NCBI GenBank assembly: GCA_902778995.1
Contig: CACYZW010000006.1
Coordinates: forward strand, 16,755 to 76,367
Length of the DNA stretch: 59,613 nucleotides
Direction: 5' to 3'
DNA from: an uncultured Eubacteriales bacterium
Lineage (GTDB): Bacteria > Bacillota > Clostridia > Christensenellales > Aristaeellaceae
This document shows, in pieces, positions 15,984-22,668 of this stretch. Under the pieces are notes generated by a model, which made no database searches, was not told the DNA's origin, and was given only the letters and a program-made list of their open reading frames with translations. The first letter of the stretch is position 1. Every line of letters starts with the position of its first letter. A program made the translations under genes and the position numbers.

Positions 15984-15992
15984 ATGATAAAT

Positions 15993-17060
15993 ATGCAGAG
16001 CGCGCCCAGGCCCAAAAAGAAGCGCATCGTCAAAAGGATCATATTGCTCCTGATCCTGCTTCTTTTGATCGCCGGTATCGGGTACTTCGCCTACAGCTCG
16101 CTGAAGGCGGAATACACCGTCACCTACGACAGCTATACCGCCACCACCGGCAGCATATCCAACGCGCTTTCCTTCAGCGGCAACCTGAGCCTGGTAGACA
16201 GCGCCACCTATACCGCCGGTTCGTCCGGCACGGTCAAGACGATCTACGCGCCCGTGGGCACAGAAGTTGAAGAGGGCGCGAAGCTGCTGCGCCTGTCCAA
16301 CGGCGAAACCGTCACGGCGGACTTCGCCGGTCGGGTGAACAAAGTCAGCGTCAGGGAGGGCGACGAGGTCACGCCCGGCACCGAGCTTGTCCAGCTGGCC
16401 GACTTCAGGCACATGCTGGTCAGCTTCCGCGTGGACGAGTACGACATCAGCGACGTGAGCGTCGGCCAGGCCTGCAAGGTGACGGTCACCGCACTGGAAA
16501 AGCAGTTTGAGACGACTGTGGACGCCATCGATTACATCTCGGCTTCGGAGGGCAACGTGGCCTATTACACCGCCACGGCCTACGTGGATGTGGACGACCC
16601 CACCGTGCTGCCGGGCATGCAGGTCACGGTGAGCATCACCCAGGAGGAGGCGAAGGACGTCGTCATACTGAAGGTGGACGCCGTCAGCTTCGACTTCACC
16701 AACCGGGCCTTCGTCTGGATGAAGAACGCGGCGGGAGAATTGGAGCAGAAGAACATCGCCACGGGCGTGTCCAACGGCAATTACATCGAAATCACCGAGG
16801 GCCTCGCCGACGGCGACGAGGTATTTGCGGAAGCCAAGGCCGAGGAAACCACCTCCCGCAGCCTGTTCGGCAGCCTGTTCGGCGGACAGCGGTTCAACGC
16901 GCCCCAGGGCGGTCCCGGCGCAGGCGGCTTTAACCGGGGCAACAACTCGAATTACGGAAGCGGCGAGCGGCCCAGCTTCGGAAGCGGCGAGCGGCCCAGC
17001 TTCGGAAGCGGCAACGGACCCGGCAGCCCAGGCACCAACGGTTCCGGCAGGAGCAACTGA
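15993..17060 (+). CDS. MacA-like membrane-fusion adaptor of an ABC exporter
   Basis: A 355-aa protein with a basic N-terminus, one membrane anchor (~8-30) and paired lipoyl-like halves (IYAPVGTEVEEGAKLLRLS and FAGRVNKVSVREGDEV). A beta-barrel region and HlyD_D23-like end follow, with little coiled-coil hairpin between the lipoyl halves. The C-terminal ~50 residues are Gly/Asn/Ser/Arg-rich with FGSGERPS tandemly repeated. The ATG at 15993 was preferred because AAGGCGG lies ~9 nt upstream; the in-frame ATG at 15984 touches that site. It is the first gene of the operon. In a monoderm cell it would form an extracellular adaptor on the MacB-like permease. Confidence 0.85.
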   Translation: MQSAPRPKKKRIVKRIILLLILLLLIAGIGYFAYSSLKAEYTVTYDSYTATTGSISNALSFSGNLSLVDSATYTAGSSGTVKTIYAPVGTEVEEGAKLLRLSNGETVTADFAGRVNKVSVREGDEVTPGTELVQLADFRHMLVSFRVDEYDISDVSVGQACKVTVTALEKQFETTVDAIDYISASEGNVAYYTATAYVDVDDPTVLPGMQVTVSITQEEAKDVVILKVDAVSFDFTNRAFVWMKNAAGELEQKNIATGVSNGNYIEITEGLADGDEVFAEAKAEETTSRSLFGSLFGGQRFNAPQGGPGAGGFNRGNNSNYGSGERPSFGSGERPSFGSGNGPGSPGTNGSGRSN

Positions 17061-17061
17061 T

Positions 17062-17787
17062 ATGGATACGATGATGACAGAGCATACATCCGGGGAAGGC
17101 CCGTTCTTCCGCATGGAGAAGATCAACAAGTTCTATCAGATGGGCGAGGAACGGGCGCACATCCTCAAGGACATCGACCTGAATATCGAAGAGGGCGAAT
17201 ACCTTTCCGTGCTCGGCCCCTCGGGCAGCGGCAAGAGCACGCTGATGAACATCATCGGGTGCCTGGACGTGGCTACCTCCGGTCGCTACACGCTGCACGG
17301 ACGCCTGGTGGACGAGCTGACGGAGGCGGAGCTGGCCCGGCTGCGCAGCGAGGAGATCGGATTTGTGTTTCAGAATTCACAGCTCCTGCCCAGGCTGACG
17401 GCCCAGAAAAACGTGGAGCTGCCGCTGATCTACGCGGGCGTCGGCCCGAAGGAGCGCCGCAGGCGCGCCCGGGACCTGCTGGACCGGGTGGGCCTTTCCG
17501 ACCGGATGAACCACTATCCCAACCAGCTCTCCGGCGGCCAGCAGCAGCGGGTGGCCATCGCCCGGGCCCTGGCGAACAACCCCACGCTGCTGCTGGCGGA
17601 CGAGCCCACCGGCGCGCTGGACCAGAAGACCGGCAGACAGGTGATGGTGCTGTTCCGGGCGCTGAATGAAGAGGGCCGCACCATCATCATGATCACCCAC
17701 GACATGAACATCGCGAAGAACGCCCGCCGGGTCGTGCACATCATCGACGGGGAATTAACGGAGGGAGGCAGCGCAAACGATGCTTAG
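17062..17787 (+). CDS. MacB/LolD-type ABC transporter ATPase
   Basis: A 241-aa stand-alone nucleotide-binding domain: Walker [10 protein letters not shown] (~54-62), Q-loop [12 protein letters not shown], signature [15 protein letters not shown], Walker [13 protein letters not shown] and H-loop ITHDM. It powers the FtsX-fold permease encoded downstream. The ATG at 17062 follows GGCAGGAG by 8 nt and the adaptor stop by 1 nt. Its last residues, TEGGSANDA, are encoded by the first copy of a 29-bp sequence repeated twice more at 142-bp spacing. Ancestrally its stop almost certainly overlapped the permease start directly, as the third copy still does. Confidence 0.94.
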
Positions 17788-18070
17788 CATTTTCGGTATA
17801 GCCTCGGCAGCGCTGCCGACTGGCGCCCAGCACACCGCCGCAGGCGGATGGCTGTGCAGGCGCGTAGCTGCGACGCGGCGAAGCCGTGGGGCAGCCGACA
17901 CGGAGGGAGGCAGCGCAAACGATGCATAACATTTTCGGTATAGCCTCGGCAGCGCTGCCGACTGGCGCCCAGCACACCGCCGCAGGCGGATGGCTGTGCG
18001 GGCGCGTAGCTGCGACGCGGCGAAGCCGTGGGGCAGCCGACACGGAGGGAGGCAGCGCAAACGATGCTTA
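17758..18070 (+). repeat. 142-bp tandem duplication between ATPase and permease genes
   Basis: Two full units (17758-17899 and 17900-18041) plus a 29-bp third start (18042-18070). The units differ at very few positions (CTTAG versus CATAA after ATG; CAGG versus CGGG). Each unit holds the ATPase 3' end, a GGGAGG ribosome-binding site, an ATG, and ~113 bp of foreign-looking sequence with the palindrome CGGCAGCGCTGCCG. The high identity between units indicates a recent event. Confidence 0.9.
17780..17929 (+). CDS. Duplication-created 49-codon frame 1
   Basis: Uses the copied permease ribosome-binding site and ATG, reads through the inserted segment ([17 protein letters not shown]...) and ends with the copied ATPase tail TEGGSANDA. 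Its ATG overlaps the ATPase stop by 8 nt, and its own end overlaps the next frame by 8 nt. The frame could be translated and keep ribosomes moving toward the permease. There is no sign of a selected product function. Confidence 0.35.
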
Positions 18071-18071
18071 A
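17922..18071 (+). CDS. Duplication-created 49-codon frame 2
   Basis: Almost identical to the preceding frame ([17 protein letters not shown]...) and again ending TEGGSANDA, at a TAA overlapping the true permease start (ATG at 18064) by 8 nt. This preserves the original stop/start coupling. Existence as a protein is untested. Confidence 0.35.
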   Translation: MHNIFGIASAALPTGAQHTAAGGWLCGRVAATRRSRGAADTEGGSANDA

Positions 18072-19275
18072 ATCCATCCGTTCCACGCTCATGATGATCG
18101 GCGAATGCTTCCGGATGTCCCTCGCCAATATACTGAGCAACCGCGCCCGATCCTTCCTGACGGTGCTGGGCATACTGATCGGCGTGGCGGCGGTCATCGC
18201 CCTGATCACCACGGTCAACGGCTTTTCCGGCTCCCTGTCCAGCTCCTTTTCCAGCATGGGCGCGGGCACGCTGACGGTCACCGTCTCCGGCAGCGACCTG
18301 AAGAGCGGCATGACCACCGGGGATTTGGAGGAACTGACGACCCTGGACGCCGTGGAGGGCATCACTCCCAACGTGTCCCTCAGCGCAAGGGTCTCCCGGG
18401 GCGGCAATTACGAAACCAGGATATCCGTATCCGGCAAGAACGCCTATTACTTCCGCCAGAACGGGGACATCCTCACCCGGGGCCGGACCATCAACGTCAC
18501 CGACGAGGACAACATGACCTTCGTATGCCTCATCAGCCCGGACATGGTGGAGACATTCTTCTACGGCGTCGATCCCATCGGCGAGAGCCTGTACGTGAAC
18601 GGCATACCCTTCCTGGTGGTCGGCCTGCTGAAGGAGAACAGCGATTCCAGCATCGCCGGCATGATGAACGGCAGCCCGGATATCCTCGTTCCCTACACCA
18701 CCGCCATGAAGATGAACAACACCAGCGTGGTGACATCCTTTACGGCTTATCTCGCAGAGGGCTGGAATACCGAAACCGCCACCGATGTCCTTGAGGCGAA
18801 GCTGGACGAGATGTTCAGCTACGAGGAGGACTGCTACGAGATCATGGACATGTCCTCCATCGAGGACACCATGAAGAACATGCTGAACATGGTCTCGGCG
18901 CTGCTGGCCGGCATCGCCTCCATCGCGCTGGTGGTAGGCGGCATCGGCATCATGAACATGATGCTCACCACCGTCACCGAGCGCACCGTCGAAATCGGCC
19001 TGAAAAAGGCGCTGGGCGCGATTCCCTGGCAGATTCAGATGCAGTTTTTGATCGAATCCTTCCTGCTGTCCGTCATCGGCGGCATAGCGGGCATACTGCT
19101 GGGGCTGCTGCTTTCGCTGATACTGTCGAAGGTCATGGATACCGATTTCGCCATATCGGTGTTCGCCATCGTGCTCGGCGCGGGCTTCTCCGCCGCCGTG
19201 GGCATCATCTTCGGCTGGGCGCCTGCGCGCAAGGCCAGCAAGCTGAACCCGATTGACGCCCTGCGTTCCGCATAA
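18064..19275 (+). CDS. MacB-like ABC exporter permease (FtsX fold)
   Basis: A 403-aa protein with one N-terminal membrane helix (SFLTVLGILIGVAAVIALITT, ~27-50), a large extracytoplasmic MacB_PCD-type domain (~50-280) and three C-terminal helices including VVGGIGIMNMMLTTVTERT, the hallmark FtsX/MacB segment. The ATG at 18064 is the third copy of the duplicated start region. With the upstream ATPase it should form a mechanotransmission exporter. Substrates of such pumps include peptides, lipoproteins and antibiotics; none can be named here. TCS linkage suggests an inducible envelope or antimicrobial-peptide response. Confidence 0.92.
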   Translation: MLKSIRSTLMMIGECFRMSLANILSNRARSFLTVLGILIGVAAVIALITTVNGFSGSLSSSFSSMGAGTLTVTVSGSDLKSGMTTGDLEELTTLDAVEGITPNVSLSARVSRGGNYETRISVSGKNAYYFRQNGDILTRGRTINVTDEDNMTFVCLISPDMVETFFYGVDPIGESLYVNGIPFLVVGLLKENSDSSIAGMMNGSPDILVPYTTAMKMNNTSVVTSFTAYLAEGWNTETATDVLEAKLDEMFSYEEDCYEIMDMSSIEDTMKNMLNMVSALLAGIASIALVVGGIGIMNMMLTTVTERTVEIGLKKALGAIPWQIQMQFLIESFLLSVIGGIAGILLGLLLSLILSKVMDTDFAISVFAIVLGAGFSAAVGIIFGWAPARKASKLNPIDALRSA

Positions 19276-19310: not shown

Positions 19311-20486
19311 ATGAAGTTCCACTCCAAGCGCATTCTGACCGCCCTTACCGCCGCTGCCGTCCTGCTCTCCCCCTGCGCCCTGGCGGATACCATCACCTTC
19401 AACGGCACCGTCGCCGCCGGTGAAACCTGCGAGGTCTACGCCCCCATCGGCGGCACGGTGGCCAGGGTGAACGTGGAGGCGGGGCAGAAGGTCGGGGCGG
19501 ACGACGTCATCGTCAGCCTGTCCACCGCGAAGGTATACGCCGAGGAGAGCGGCGTCGTGACCGGCATCTTCGGCCAGCCGGGCGACAACGCCGAGACCGT
19601 CGCCAACAAATACGGCGCGGTGATGTACATCGAGGGCGAGAGCGTCTACAGCATCGCCGCGTCCACCGACAACGCCTACAACTCCACGGCCACCAAGTTC
19701 GTCCACGTGGGCGAAGACGTATGCCTCAGCTGCTATTCCGACGGCAAGCACACCGGTACCGGCGTGATCACCGCCATCGAGGGCACCGATTACACCGTCC
19801 GGGTGACCTCCGGCGAATTCCTGGTGGGCGAGACCGTGAACGTCTACCGCGGCGAAAAGGCCATCTCCACCAAGCGCATCGGCCGGGGCAAGCTGAGCCG
19901 CACCAACCCCACCGCAGTGACCAGCACCGGCAGCATCGTGGCCTTCGCTGTGGCCGAGGGCGACAGCGTGCAGCGGGGCGACCTGCTGTTCGAGACCCTG
20001 GACGGCAGCTTCAACGGCCTGTACATGTCGGGCAGCGACATCACCGCCGGCGTGGAGGGCACCATAAGCCGGATCGACGCCCAGCAGGGCAGCGCGATCC
20101 AGAAGGACAGCGTCGTGGCCGCGCTCTATCCCGAGGGCTCCATGCGCATCGAGGCGCAGATCGAGGAGGCCAACCTCGCATCCATCGCCGTCGGCGATCC
20201 GGTGAGCATCGAGCTGCTGTGGAACCAGGACGAGGACGTGACCTATGAGGGCACGATCACCATGATCTCGGCGATTGCGGACAGCAATGAGAGCTCCGGC
20301 GACGCCATGAGCTCCGAGACCGAGGCCAGCGACACCGTCACCTATACCGTATACGTCGATTTTACGCCCGACGAAAACACCCGCTACGGCATGAGCGCGG
20401 TGATCACGACCCTGGACGCGGCGTATGCCGAAGCCGACCAGGATGCGGAGGGCGGCGAAGAGGTGAGCGAAGATGCGCAGGATTAA
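19311..20486 (+). CDS. Secreted HlyD/lipoyl-type adaptor-like protein (second adaptor)
   Basis: A 391-aa protein with a signal peptide (cleavage probably after CALA, ~25). Two lipoyl/biotinyl-like beta modules follow: VYAPIGGTVARVNVEAGQKV with its partner at ~60-85, and IVAFAVAEGDSVQRGDLLF near 205-225 with GVEGTISRIDAQQGSAI. A barrel-like C-terminus ends in an acidic tail (DQDAEGGEEVSEDAQD). There is no membrane anchor after the signal peptide and no coiled-coil hairpin. It is clearly related to the third adaptor at 23887. AAAGGAGG lies upstream of the ATG. It overlaps the following gene by 14 nt. Confidence 0.78.
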   Translation: MKFHSKRILTALTAAAVLLSPCALADTITFNGTVAAGETCEVYAPIGGTVARVNVEAGQKVGADDVIVSLSTAKVYAEESGVVTGIFGQPGDNAETVANKYGAVMYIEGESVYSIAASTDNAYNSTATKFVHVGEDVCLSCYSDGKHTGTGVITAIEGTDYTVRVTSGEFLVGETVNVYRGEKAISTKRIGRGKLSRTNPTAVTSTGSIVAFAVAEGDSVQRGDLLFETLDGSFNGLYMSGSDITAGVEGTISRIDAQQGSAIQKDSVVAALYPEGSMRIEAQIEEANLASIAVGDPVSIELLWNQDEDVTYEGTITMISAIADSNESSGDAMSSETEASDTVTYTVYVDFTPDENTRYGMSAVITTLDAAYAEADQDAEGGEEVSEDAQD

Positions 20487-22668
20487 GCGCCTGCTGTCCC
20501 TCGCCATGGCCGGCGCGCTGATGCTGTGTACGACGCTGAGCGAAGCCCTTGCCAGCGGCGACGCGGCAGGCGGCGCCAAGGCTTCCGCCCAGGCGACCAG
20601 CGAAGCCTCCGCCAGCGGGAAGGCGGCGTCGAAGAAGGCCTCCAAAAAGGAGAGCCAGAAGGAAAAGGCGTCAAAGGCATCCGACAAGAAAGCCGAACAG
20701 GAAGAACAGGCCAAAACCTCTGATAAGGAGGATAAAAAGGCAGAGGCAACAAAGGCATCCGACAAGAAGGCCGAACAGGAAGAACAGGCCAAGGCCTCCG
20801 GTAAGGAAGATAAAAAGGCAGAGGCGGCAAAGGCCTCCGACAAGAAGGCCGAACAGCAGAAGGAAGAAAAAGAGGCCCAGTCGGAAAAGGAAGTCAAGCT
20901 CACCCTCTCCATCGCCAGTCCAGACGGTCTGGCCAAGGCAAACGGCGCGTATCAGGTGGATCCCGCCGAGGTCAGGACGCTGAAGCTCGCCTGGTCCTGC
21001 AAGGGCACCTGCGACAGCTATGAGGTCAGCGTTTCCGGCGGCGTCTACAGCGACACGACGACCAAGACCTCCGTGAAGCTGTCCGTGGGTTCCCTTCCCG
21101 AAGGCAAGTACACCGCGACCGTCAAGGCCGTCCGCGACGGCAAGACCGTCGCAAAGAAAAGCCTGAGCTTCCAGATCGTCCCCTCCGGGCAAAAGGCAAA
21201 CGACGATGCACAGGAAGCCGCCGGGGCCGGAGCTGCCGAAACCACCGTTCAGGAGCCGCAGGTCGAAGGCGAAGCCCCCTCTGAGGAAATCGTTCAGGCG
21301 CAGCAGGACGAAAGCCAAGCGCCTGATGACGAAATCGTTCAGGCGCAGCAGGACAAAAGCCAAGCCCTTGCCGATGACACCGTACAAGAACAACAGGACG
21401 AAAGCCAAGCCCCTGCTGATGACACCGTGCAAGAACATCAGGAAGAAGGCGAAGCCTCTACCGACGACACTGTTCAAGAGCAACAGGAAGAAAGCCAAGC
21501 CCCCGCCGACGACACTGTGCAGGAGCAACAGGAAAAAAGCGAAGCCCCTGCTGAGGACACTGTGCAGGAGCAACAGGAAGAAAGCCAAGCGCCTGGTGAT
21601 GAAATCGTTCAGGAGCAACAGGAAGAAGGCGAAGCCCCTGCTGAGGACACTGTGCAGGAACAACAGGACGAAAGCGAAACCCCTGCTGAGGACACTGTGC
21701 AGGAACAACAGGACGAAGTAGAAGCCCCTGCTGAGGACACTGTGCAGGAGCAACAGGACGAAAGCGAAGCCCCTGCTGAGGACACTGTGCAGGAGCATCA
21801 AGACGAAAGCCAAGCCACCGCCGATGGCACCGTGCAAGAACAACAGGAGGAAAGCCAAGCCCCCGCCGATGAAACCGTTCAGGAGCCGCAGGCAGACGAC
21901 GAAGCCCCCTCTGACGATGCATCCACCGATGACGCCCCTCAGGCGTCGCAAAGCGAAATCGAAGTGCCTGCAGGTGAAATCGTTCAGGAACAGCAGTGCG
22001 AAGGCGAAGCCCCCGTCGGGGATGTGTCCGGCGGCGACGTTGTTCATGTGGCGCAGATCGCGGATGAAACACCCGTTGACGAAATCGCTCAGGCATCGCA
22101 ATCCGACGATCAGACACCCCCCGACAGCGACACTCAGATTCAGCAGTCCGAGGAAGCCATCGTCGAAGCAGCCGTGCAGGAGCCCCAGGGCGATCAGGAT
22201 GCGCCCGCTGCGGACCCGCAGAGCGCGCCGCAGGCATCGGAGGACGGGATTGCGCTGGACACCGGGATCGACTTGGAGCTCTCGAATGTGGAAATCGACC
22301 CGGACATTCAAGTCACGCCGGTGGACGCGAACGGAAGCCCTGATTTGGAAGCGTCGGCCGGCCCGGAGGTATCCAACGCAGGCAAAGCGCAGGAAACCCG
22401 CCTCACGCTCTCCATCATCGGCATGCCGGGCCTGTCCATTGTCAACGGCGCGTACCGCATCGACCCGACCCAGGCCAGCGCGCTGAGCCTCGTCTGGGAT
22501 TGCGACGGCGCATGCGACGGGTACAGGGTCAGGGTGTCCGGCGGAGCTTACAGCGCCTCCACAAAGGACACGAATCTGACGCTGCCCCTCGCCGGGCTGG
22601 CTGACGGCGGCTACACCGCCACGGTTACGGCGCTGGCGGACGGAAAAAGGCCGCATCGGCCAAGCTGA
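20473..22668 (+). CDS. Repeat-bearing secreted surface protein, N-terminal part (frameshifted)
   Basis: A 731-aa frame. It has a signal peptide (~1-27), a Lys/Ala/Glu-rich low-complexity stalk (KASDKKAEQEEQAK units, ~28-140), an Ig-like module (~142-240, with CKGTCDSYEVSVSGGVY), about fifteen 15-residue acidic repeats (TVQEQQDESEAPAED type, ~256-480), a degenerate acidic region, and a second Ig-like module (~640-725). It then stops early at PHRPS. Going back one base at the A5 run 22644-22648 restores DGKKAASAKLSFEI, which matches the other modules, and continues into the next frame. The intact product would be ~1150 aa. It is encoded inside the export operon, so it may be a partner of the adaptors or a cargo. 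Confidence 0.72.
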   Translation: MRRIKRLLSLAMAGALMLCTTLSEALASGDAAGGAKASAQATSEASASGKAASKKASKKESQKEKASKASDKKAEQEEQAKTSDKEDKKAEATKASDKKAEQEEQAKASGKEDKKAEAAKASDKKAEQQKEEKEAQSEKEVKLTLSIASPDGLAKANGAYQVDPAEVRTLKLAWSCKGTCDSYEVSVSGGVYSDTTTKTSVKLSVGSLPEGKYTATVKAVRDGKTVAKKSLSFQIVPSGQKANDDAQEAAGAGAAETTVQEPQVEGEAPSEEIVQAQQDESQAPDDEIVQAQQDKSQALADDTVQEQQDESQAPADDTVQEHQEEGEASTDDTVQEQQEESQAPADDTVQEQQEKSEAPAEDTVQEQQEESQAPGDEIVQEQQEEGEAPAEDTVQEQQDESETPAEDTVQEQQDEVEAPAEDTVQEQQDESEAPAEDTVQEHQDESQATADGTVQEQQEESQAPADETVQEPQADDEAPSDDASTDDAPQASQSEIEVPAGEIVQEQQCEGEAPVGDVSGGDVVHVAQIADETPVDEIAQASQSDDQTPPDSDTQIQQSEEAIVEAAVQEPQGDQDAPAADPQSAPQASEDGIALDTGIDLELSNVEIDPDIQVTPVDANGSPDLEASAGPEVSNAGKAQETRLTLSIIGMPGLSIVNGAYRIDPTQASALSLVWDCDGACDGYRVRVSGGAYSASTKDTNLTLPLAGLADGGYTATVTALADGKRPHRPS
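21241..21930 (+). repeat. 45-bp coding tandem repeats (about 15 units)
   Basis: Units of 15 codons, consensus TVQEQQ(D/E)ES(E/Q)APA(E/D)D, start after the first Ig-like module. Central units are nearly identical in DNA (GACACTGTGCAGGAGCAACA recurs), while the edges are degenerate. Such arrays change copy number readily by recombination. Not a CRISPR: units are contiguous and keep a reading frame. Confidence 0.85.

Follow-up and report, generated by a model that had tools for sequence, protein, structure and literature searches.

A probable relay of phased reading frames through a dispersed two-hairpin element at an ATPase–permease junction of Aristaeellaceae

The junction between the ATPase and permease genes of a MacB-like transporter, encoded in a 59,613-nt stretch of an uncultured Aristaeellaceae genome (assembly GCA_902778995.1, contig CACYZW010000006.1; hereafter the window), contains two 142-nt units, each consisting of an 85-nt element core with flanking target copies of about 29 nt that comprise the ATPase tail, a Shine-Dalgarno (SD) sequence and the stop/start overlap (Table 1). 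Orthologous junctions in related species are either empty or filled, and the phase of the filled ones is invariant. This arrangement is probably best explained by insertion of the element with copying of its target, together with a phased relay of short ORFs that would preserve termination-reinitiation coupling between the two genes.

Table 1. Features of the transporter locus and the double unit (positions in the window)
Feature	Positions	Strand	Remarks
Periplasmic-adaptor-like gene (HlyD/RND_mfp)	15984..17060	+	Upstream, same strand; TIGR01730 above its cut-off
ABC transporter ATPase, MacB/LolD-like	17062..17787	+	Pfam ABC_tran 3e-35; 3' end overlaps relay ORF 1 by 8 nt
Target copy 1	17758..17787	+	ATPase tail, SD GGAGGGAGG and ATG/stop overlap; single copy at empty junctions
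Hairpin 1, 5' arm GGCAGCGC	17767..17774	+	Within target copy 1; 8 bp, perfect with 17810–17817
Relay ORF 1	17780..17929	+	49 codons
Hairpin 1, 3' arm GCGCTGCC	17810..17817	+
Element core copy 1 (hairpins 2 and 3)	17815..17899	+	Covariance model R1, 80.7 bits, E 5.1e-12; one of the 13 rows from which R1 was built
Target copy 2	17900..17929	+	SD, ATG/stop overlap
Relay ORF 2	17922..18071	+	49 codons
Element core copy 2	17957..18041	+	Covariance model R1, 82.9 bits, E 2.0e-12
Target copy 3	18042..18071	+	SD and permease start; overlaps relay ORF 2 stop
Permease, MacB/FtsX-type	18064..19275	+	403 aa; MacB_PCD 1.9e-32, FtsX 2.8e-20

The initial annotation described a 142-bp duplication that yields two 49-codon frames, each linked to its neighbours by an 8-nt overlap, as far as the permease. 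The chain is borne out by the ORF coordinates: relay ORF 1 starts 8 nt before the end of the ATPase stop codon (17787), relay ORF 2 starts likewise before the end of ORF 1, and ORF 2 ends 8 nt inside the permease, the ATG of which is at 18064. The two copies (17758–17899 and 17900–18041) are also real, differing at 3 of 142 positions and forming a tandem repeat that is not due to chance (TRF score of 607), and a third partial copy at 18042–18071 corresponds to the first 29–30 nt of the unit. Their description as a duplication was, however, incomplete, the unit being a target copy plus an element core. Plain tandem duplication as the sole origin is ruled out, because the core is dispersed and empty orthologous junctions exist. 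Relative to an empty junction, the window genome carries 284 nt of extra DNA (306 versus 22 nt). Neither a sigma-70-like promoter nor an intrinsic terminator was found within 17600–18200. Other tandem repeats in the window include a perfect 24-nt repeat (16955–17012, 2.4 copies) in the Gly/Ser-rich tail of the adaptor-like gene just upstream, and about 14 copies of a 45-nt unit (21243–21886) arrayed inside a large ORF (20473–22668).

It is extremely improbable that the second unit is an assembly artefact. Such a suspicion would be natural for a draft genome in 239 contigs, but the copies are not identical, a separate genome (G019) also has chained links, and the conclusion would be unchanged even with one unit.

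Orthologues of the permease were found in 23 of the 28 genomes of the genus, and 22 junctions were readable, including that of the window genome and leaving out G020, in which the gene is cut before the junction. Fourteen of the 22 junctions are empty, all with the 8-nt ATG/stop overlap, and eight, including that of the window genome, are filled. The extra DNA in the filled genomes amounts to +284 (window genome, 2 × 142), +127, +139, +130, +136, +136, +61, and +282 nt; the last of these (G019) comprises three links of 142, 61, and 79 nt with chained ORFs of 49, 22, and 28 codons, so the number of links per junction across species is 0, 1, 2 or 3. On either side of the extra DNA lies a copy of the target, with ATPase tail, SD and overlap, and each unit therefore consists of one target copy and the inserted DNA. 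The overlap between the ATPase stop and the first relay ATG measures 11 nt in G005 and G006 and 8 nt in the other six filled genomes. The element core is present in seven of the eight filled genomes (eight cores) and absent from G002.

On a tree of ATPase plus permease, in which 9 of the 19 inner branches were drawn open, filled and empty species are interleaved and the filled state needs at least seven changes. Tree neighbours differing in state are G023/G015, G008/G017, G002/G026, and G006 versus G003 and G004. A single clustered gain was rejected on the basis of these changes, among which precise losses are indistinguishable from gains; they may represent repeated gains, or an old gain followed by precise losses through recombination between target copies. 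Outside the genus, 56 junctions in 55 genomes were inspected, these being the best-scoring rows outside the genus with one row (G029:C88) passed over, and 131 of 250 genomes having a match. None of the 56 is filled, either by length or by the R1 model, and 53 of them have the stop 8 nt into the permease gene, which indicates that the stop/start overlap is old and conserved.

The ATG-to-ATG link lengths in the filled genomes are 142, 142, 127, 139, 130, 136, 136, 61, and 142/61/79 nt. The initial annotation named a unit length varying freely out of frame as evidence against its reading; checked across species, the length is 1 mod 3 in all 11 links of the eight filled genomes, and all 11 are free of stops over 22–49 codons. 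Links joined by 8-nt overlaps can be chained in no other phase. In all eight genomes the last link ends at +8 of the permease start, as at empty sites. Openness by itself is weak evidence, since 25–76% of right-length shuffled inserts are open per link, while phase and openness together are not weak; the 11 links share ancestry and are thus not independent trials. Core spans predicted by R1 are 1 mod 3 at 8/8 transporter-junction sites versus 4/21 other sites of the genus (Fisher p 1.2e-4, or 7e-4 counting six lineages), a comparison covering 29 of the 35 R1 matches and leaving out five without a locus and the tandem neighbour G018:C34:22099. Substituting the 21 cores from other sites into each of the eight junction contexts kept the relay in 24 of 168 combinations, by the same three cores each time, and the other 18 cores broke it; exchange of junction cores among junctions kept it in 56/56.

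Alternatively, ribosomes could initiate de novo on the permease at the last copy of the SD; the micro-ORFs would then have no function and be tolerated as a by-product that arises when an overlap is copied into DNA rich in GC. Because the last target copy includes a complete SD, independent initiation on the permease is possible, and GC-rich DNA is often open, as the shuffled inserts illustrate. This explanation nevertheless appears unlikely in view of the correct phase of all 11 links despite their varied length, the failure of 18/21 cores from elsewhere to sustain a relay, and the 8-nt stop position kept by nearly all junctions outside the genus.

The ATG at which translation would restart lies exactly 35 nt before the core in all seven core-bearing species, a spacing that may reflect shared descent and that equals 27 nt when counted from the ATPase stop (24 nt in G005 and G006). 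The loop between this ATG and the core is mostly unalignable (11–68% identity versus 64–83% at fourfold sites). In G002 and in the third G019 link, the distance from the ATG to the end of a GTGCC arm is also 35 nt. The G002 link and two of the three G019 links have no core and still contain a phased ORF of 22–28 codons, which points to the relay, rather than the peptide or the core, as the thing kept.

These core-less links also bear on whether the 45–49-codon ORFs encode a functional small protein. The ORFs are open in all eight species and have recurring motifs such as VPPTSG and RRVAAT..GAAD, but the motifs correspond to one reading frame of the element, the N-terminal part is the mostly unalignable loop described above, relays persist in G002 and G019 without the core, and at another site a core is read in a different frame. 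Neither window ORF has a Pfam or NCBIfam match. A peptide function is accordingly scarcely credible.

The core follows a common skeleton, CGACTAG – hairpin 2 – CGTAGCTGCGACG – hairpin 3 – GGCAGCCGA. The two hairpins were derived from 13 aligned cores and show compensatory changes in 12 of 22 pairs. In the alignment, 97.2% of cells are paired, and none of 500 shuffles was as high on any of five measures; this test leans in favour of the structure, which was derived from the same 13 rows. In a control with partners slid by 1–3 columns, pairing dropped to 30–51%. The covariance model R1 built from these rows, among which are several junction copies, gave 35 matches in 15 of the 28 genus genomes (E 0.01), a lower bound because 150 candidates were scored per genome. 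The junction cores of G008 and G009, outside the 13 rows, still score 49–53 bits. Among 150 sampled genomes of the family, 18 contain matches, five of them from this genus, with up to 11 per genome. The window's own genome, which is 83% complete, contains only the two tandem core copies, and a search of it for the 113-nt piece revealed no copies beyond these two. No Rfam family covers the element in window positions 17500–18500 or at nine other loci, the two Rfam matches listed being elsewhere or far below the cut-off. Searches of phages and plasmids by blastn gave no match, and a scan of genome contigs with a short SD-like string returned four unrelated loci. In G065 elements lie 20–35 nt from contig ends, as if in assembly-breaking repeats, and two loci of G171 have about 400 nt in common around the element.

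In most cores the TAG within CTAG or GTAG closes two of the three frames, leaving the one that the junction copies use; in the window genome core, CTAG reads CTGG, so that one frame is closed. At some sites an upstream ORF enters the element and the conserved GACTAG (within the first 9 nt of the core) serves as its stop codon.

The structured core raises the question of an RNA regulator in which pairing of the SD region with a complementary arm, as hairpin 1, gates translation of the relay or the permease. The arm is complementary to the local SD region over 6–12 nt in six of seven species (4 nt in G019), with a mean of 8.4 for own arms versus 5.9 for arms of other species, relatives included, and two covarying hairpins are present in the core. 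The 314-nt insert is also more stably folded than its shuffled versions (z −4.9), with the caveat that it includes a repeat; one 113-nt piece on its own shows no such advantage (z −1.2). The predicted accessibility of the SD shows no difference between filled and empty junctions (means of 0.27 and 0.29, 11 empties, p 0.65); it thus gives no structural sign of strict dependence, and sequestration of the SD as a coupling switch is unsupported by it. Since G002 also has a relay with no core, such a regulator is quite improbable as the explanation of the locus, although it could coexist with the relay.

Two other junctions in the genus carry relays with their own type of overlap. In G002, where the element separates a PrgI-family gene from the gene that follows, a 39-codon ORF begins at the upstream stop (TGATG) and terminates 1 nt short of the next ATG; at E 1e-20 the PrgI-family gene is absent from the other genus genomes, and no empty counterpart of this junction was found among them. 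In G012, a 34-codon relay ORF has 4-nt overlaps on both sides. A relay-like ORF at G012:C168 was set aside, as its “downstream gene” appears to be antisense to another gene. At G018:C46 the element lies between two co-directional genes with no relay, which indicates that a relay does not arise automatically after insertion at a junction.

The 3' end of uvrB is a second recurrent site of the element. Six genomes carry it there, five among 23 orthologues plus G024 from the R1 search, and the last ~29 nt of uvrB are repeated behind the element; the identity of the gene was established by the NCBIfam UvrB model, tested on the G023 gene. R1 had no match at the other 18 of the 23 uvrB loci. The unit lengths are 123, 127, 128, 127, 130, and 133 nt, and the stop-to-core spacing is 19 to 23. 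Nothing at this site depends on phase, and yet four of the six units are 1 mod 3, which counts against the relay reading. The type of the central hairpin varies between species at this same site.

Across 41 of 45 loci, flanking repeats score at least 15.5 at all eight transporter cores, all six uvrB sites, G012:C214 and one tandem array, against a control whose upper tail (99% at 21) is inflated because it mixes orthologous sites. Clear flanking repeats thus accompany 15 of the 41 loci as well as the array, and at the remaining sites they are weaker or absent. The right-hand target copy begins 0–3 nt after the core at all 15 sites outside the tandem array. A MITE of a DDE transposon would have terminal inverted repeats and target duplications of fixed length; here the matched length of the target copy varies from 16 to 33 nt, no inverted ends were noticed by eye, and no parent transposase was identified.

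Taken as a mechanism, a small structured dispersed element, mobile now or formerly, would have inserted at the overlap of the ATPase stop and the permease start, with about 29 nt of the target copied on each side. In the window genome the whole unit would then have been duplicated in tandem, which is what the two units look like. A ribosome ending on the ATPase would restart at the ATG 8 nt back, translate the short ORF across the element and terminate 8 nt into the next start copy, continuing from link to link until the permease; it could restart at each link because the overlap is copied along with the target. Each unit would thereby lengthen the operon and leave termination-reinitiation coupling unbroken, and selection would favour an open, correctly phased relay irrespective of the peptide.

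Published reporter data on coupled genes fit such a scheme: coupling is almost lost across gaps of about 20 nt, and reinitiation needs no more of the upstream gene than its last 15 nt, whereas one pair reinitiates across 14–15 nt and de novo initiation reaches 10–30%, so that the effects of gaps are gene-specific (PMC10666635). Given the effect of ~20-nt gaps, inserts of 61–284 nt should uncouple the permease, and the copied overlap, together with about 22 nt of ATPase tail, should re-establish coupling at each link in turn. The relay proposed in the initial annotation is thus well supported by comparison among species, in phase and openness in eight of eight genomes and 11 links, with translation of the micro-ORFs predicted; that account left out the dispersed structured element and its long target copies. 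Its further suggestion, that copy number may tune the permease level, would concern the number of links, which varies here at the species level.

The element most closely resembles the mycobacterial interspersed repetitive units (MIRUs; e.g., that of senX3-regX3) as a short dispersed junction repeat with several consecutive units, oriented with the genes and containing a small ORF that overlaps both neighbours. MIRUs are described as apparently mobile, inserting at start codons, with an inner ORF coupled at −4 nt spacing (PMC12548453, a 2025 review citing Supply et al., 1997), as having no dyad symmetry and small ORFs overlapping their neighbours (PMC4473831), and as 77 and 53 bp in unit length (PMC4213456). 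Arithmetically, both lengths are 2 mod 3, as a 4-nt overlap requires, and the present links are 1 mod 3, as an 8-nt overlap requires. Dispersal, here in 15/28 genus genomes, is common to both, as are the overlapping small ORFs, found at 8/8 filled transporter junctions and two others but not at G018:C46. The present element, however, has two covarying hairpins where MIRUs have no dyad symmetry, and it differs further in the extra hairpin formed with the target copy, the mostly 8-nt overlaps and the ~29-nt target copies. Because of its dyads, it may be regarded as MIRU-like rather than as a MIRU, a functional analogue only, compared by description.

A likeness to GTAG REPs is seen in the short palindromic repeat and in the GTAG directly 5' of hairpin 3, the stem of which has mismatches (REP features from PMC3733652). 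REPs are, however, described as single palindromes of 20–40 bp, while the junction core spans 73–85 nt with two hairpins, and the words “duplication” and “target site” are absent from the main text of that paper. Y1_Tnp occurs in 16 of the 28 genus genomes and in 9 of the 15 element genomes versus 8.6 expected, showing no association, and no Y1 transposase was found in the window's own genome. Unusually long target duplications, of 16–28 bp, are shared with the IS1202 group (PMC10132070), but those elements possess terminal inverted repeats and a large transposase gene (24–26 bp and 1.5 kb, respectively, in the ISAjo2 type), neither of which is seen in the 72–85-nt core. In M. tuberculosis ppe2, downstream translation depends on a translated short ORF with an AUGA overlap, mostly through termination-reinitiation (PMC11260477); it differs in being a leader ORF below a riboswitch and not an inserted repeat between two genes. 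A literature search of partial coverage returned no description of this element, nor of MIRU-like relays outside mycobacteria.

More speculatively, and with rather low probability, the element could represent a new class of mobile repeats that escape operon polarity by their mode of insertion, copying about 25–33 nt of the target and thus recreating any stop/start overlap on both sides, with a hairpin leader of fixed length (35 nt from restart ATG to core at this junction) setting the phase of the ORF through a foldable core. Such long target-copying insertion with no terminal inverted repeats might use an RNA template or differ in some other way from the bacterial transposition known to date.

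Whether overlap coupling is under selection, and whether it can be passed through several links, are the questions that this locus addresses, and its natural variants make both testable. The natural comparison across species suggests that the phase of the hand-over itself is what a coupled junction conserves; DNA may be inserted, swapped, shortened or duplicated at the junction provided that each link remains phased. It also suggests that MIRU-like relay elements exist outside mycobacteria.
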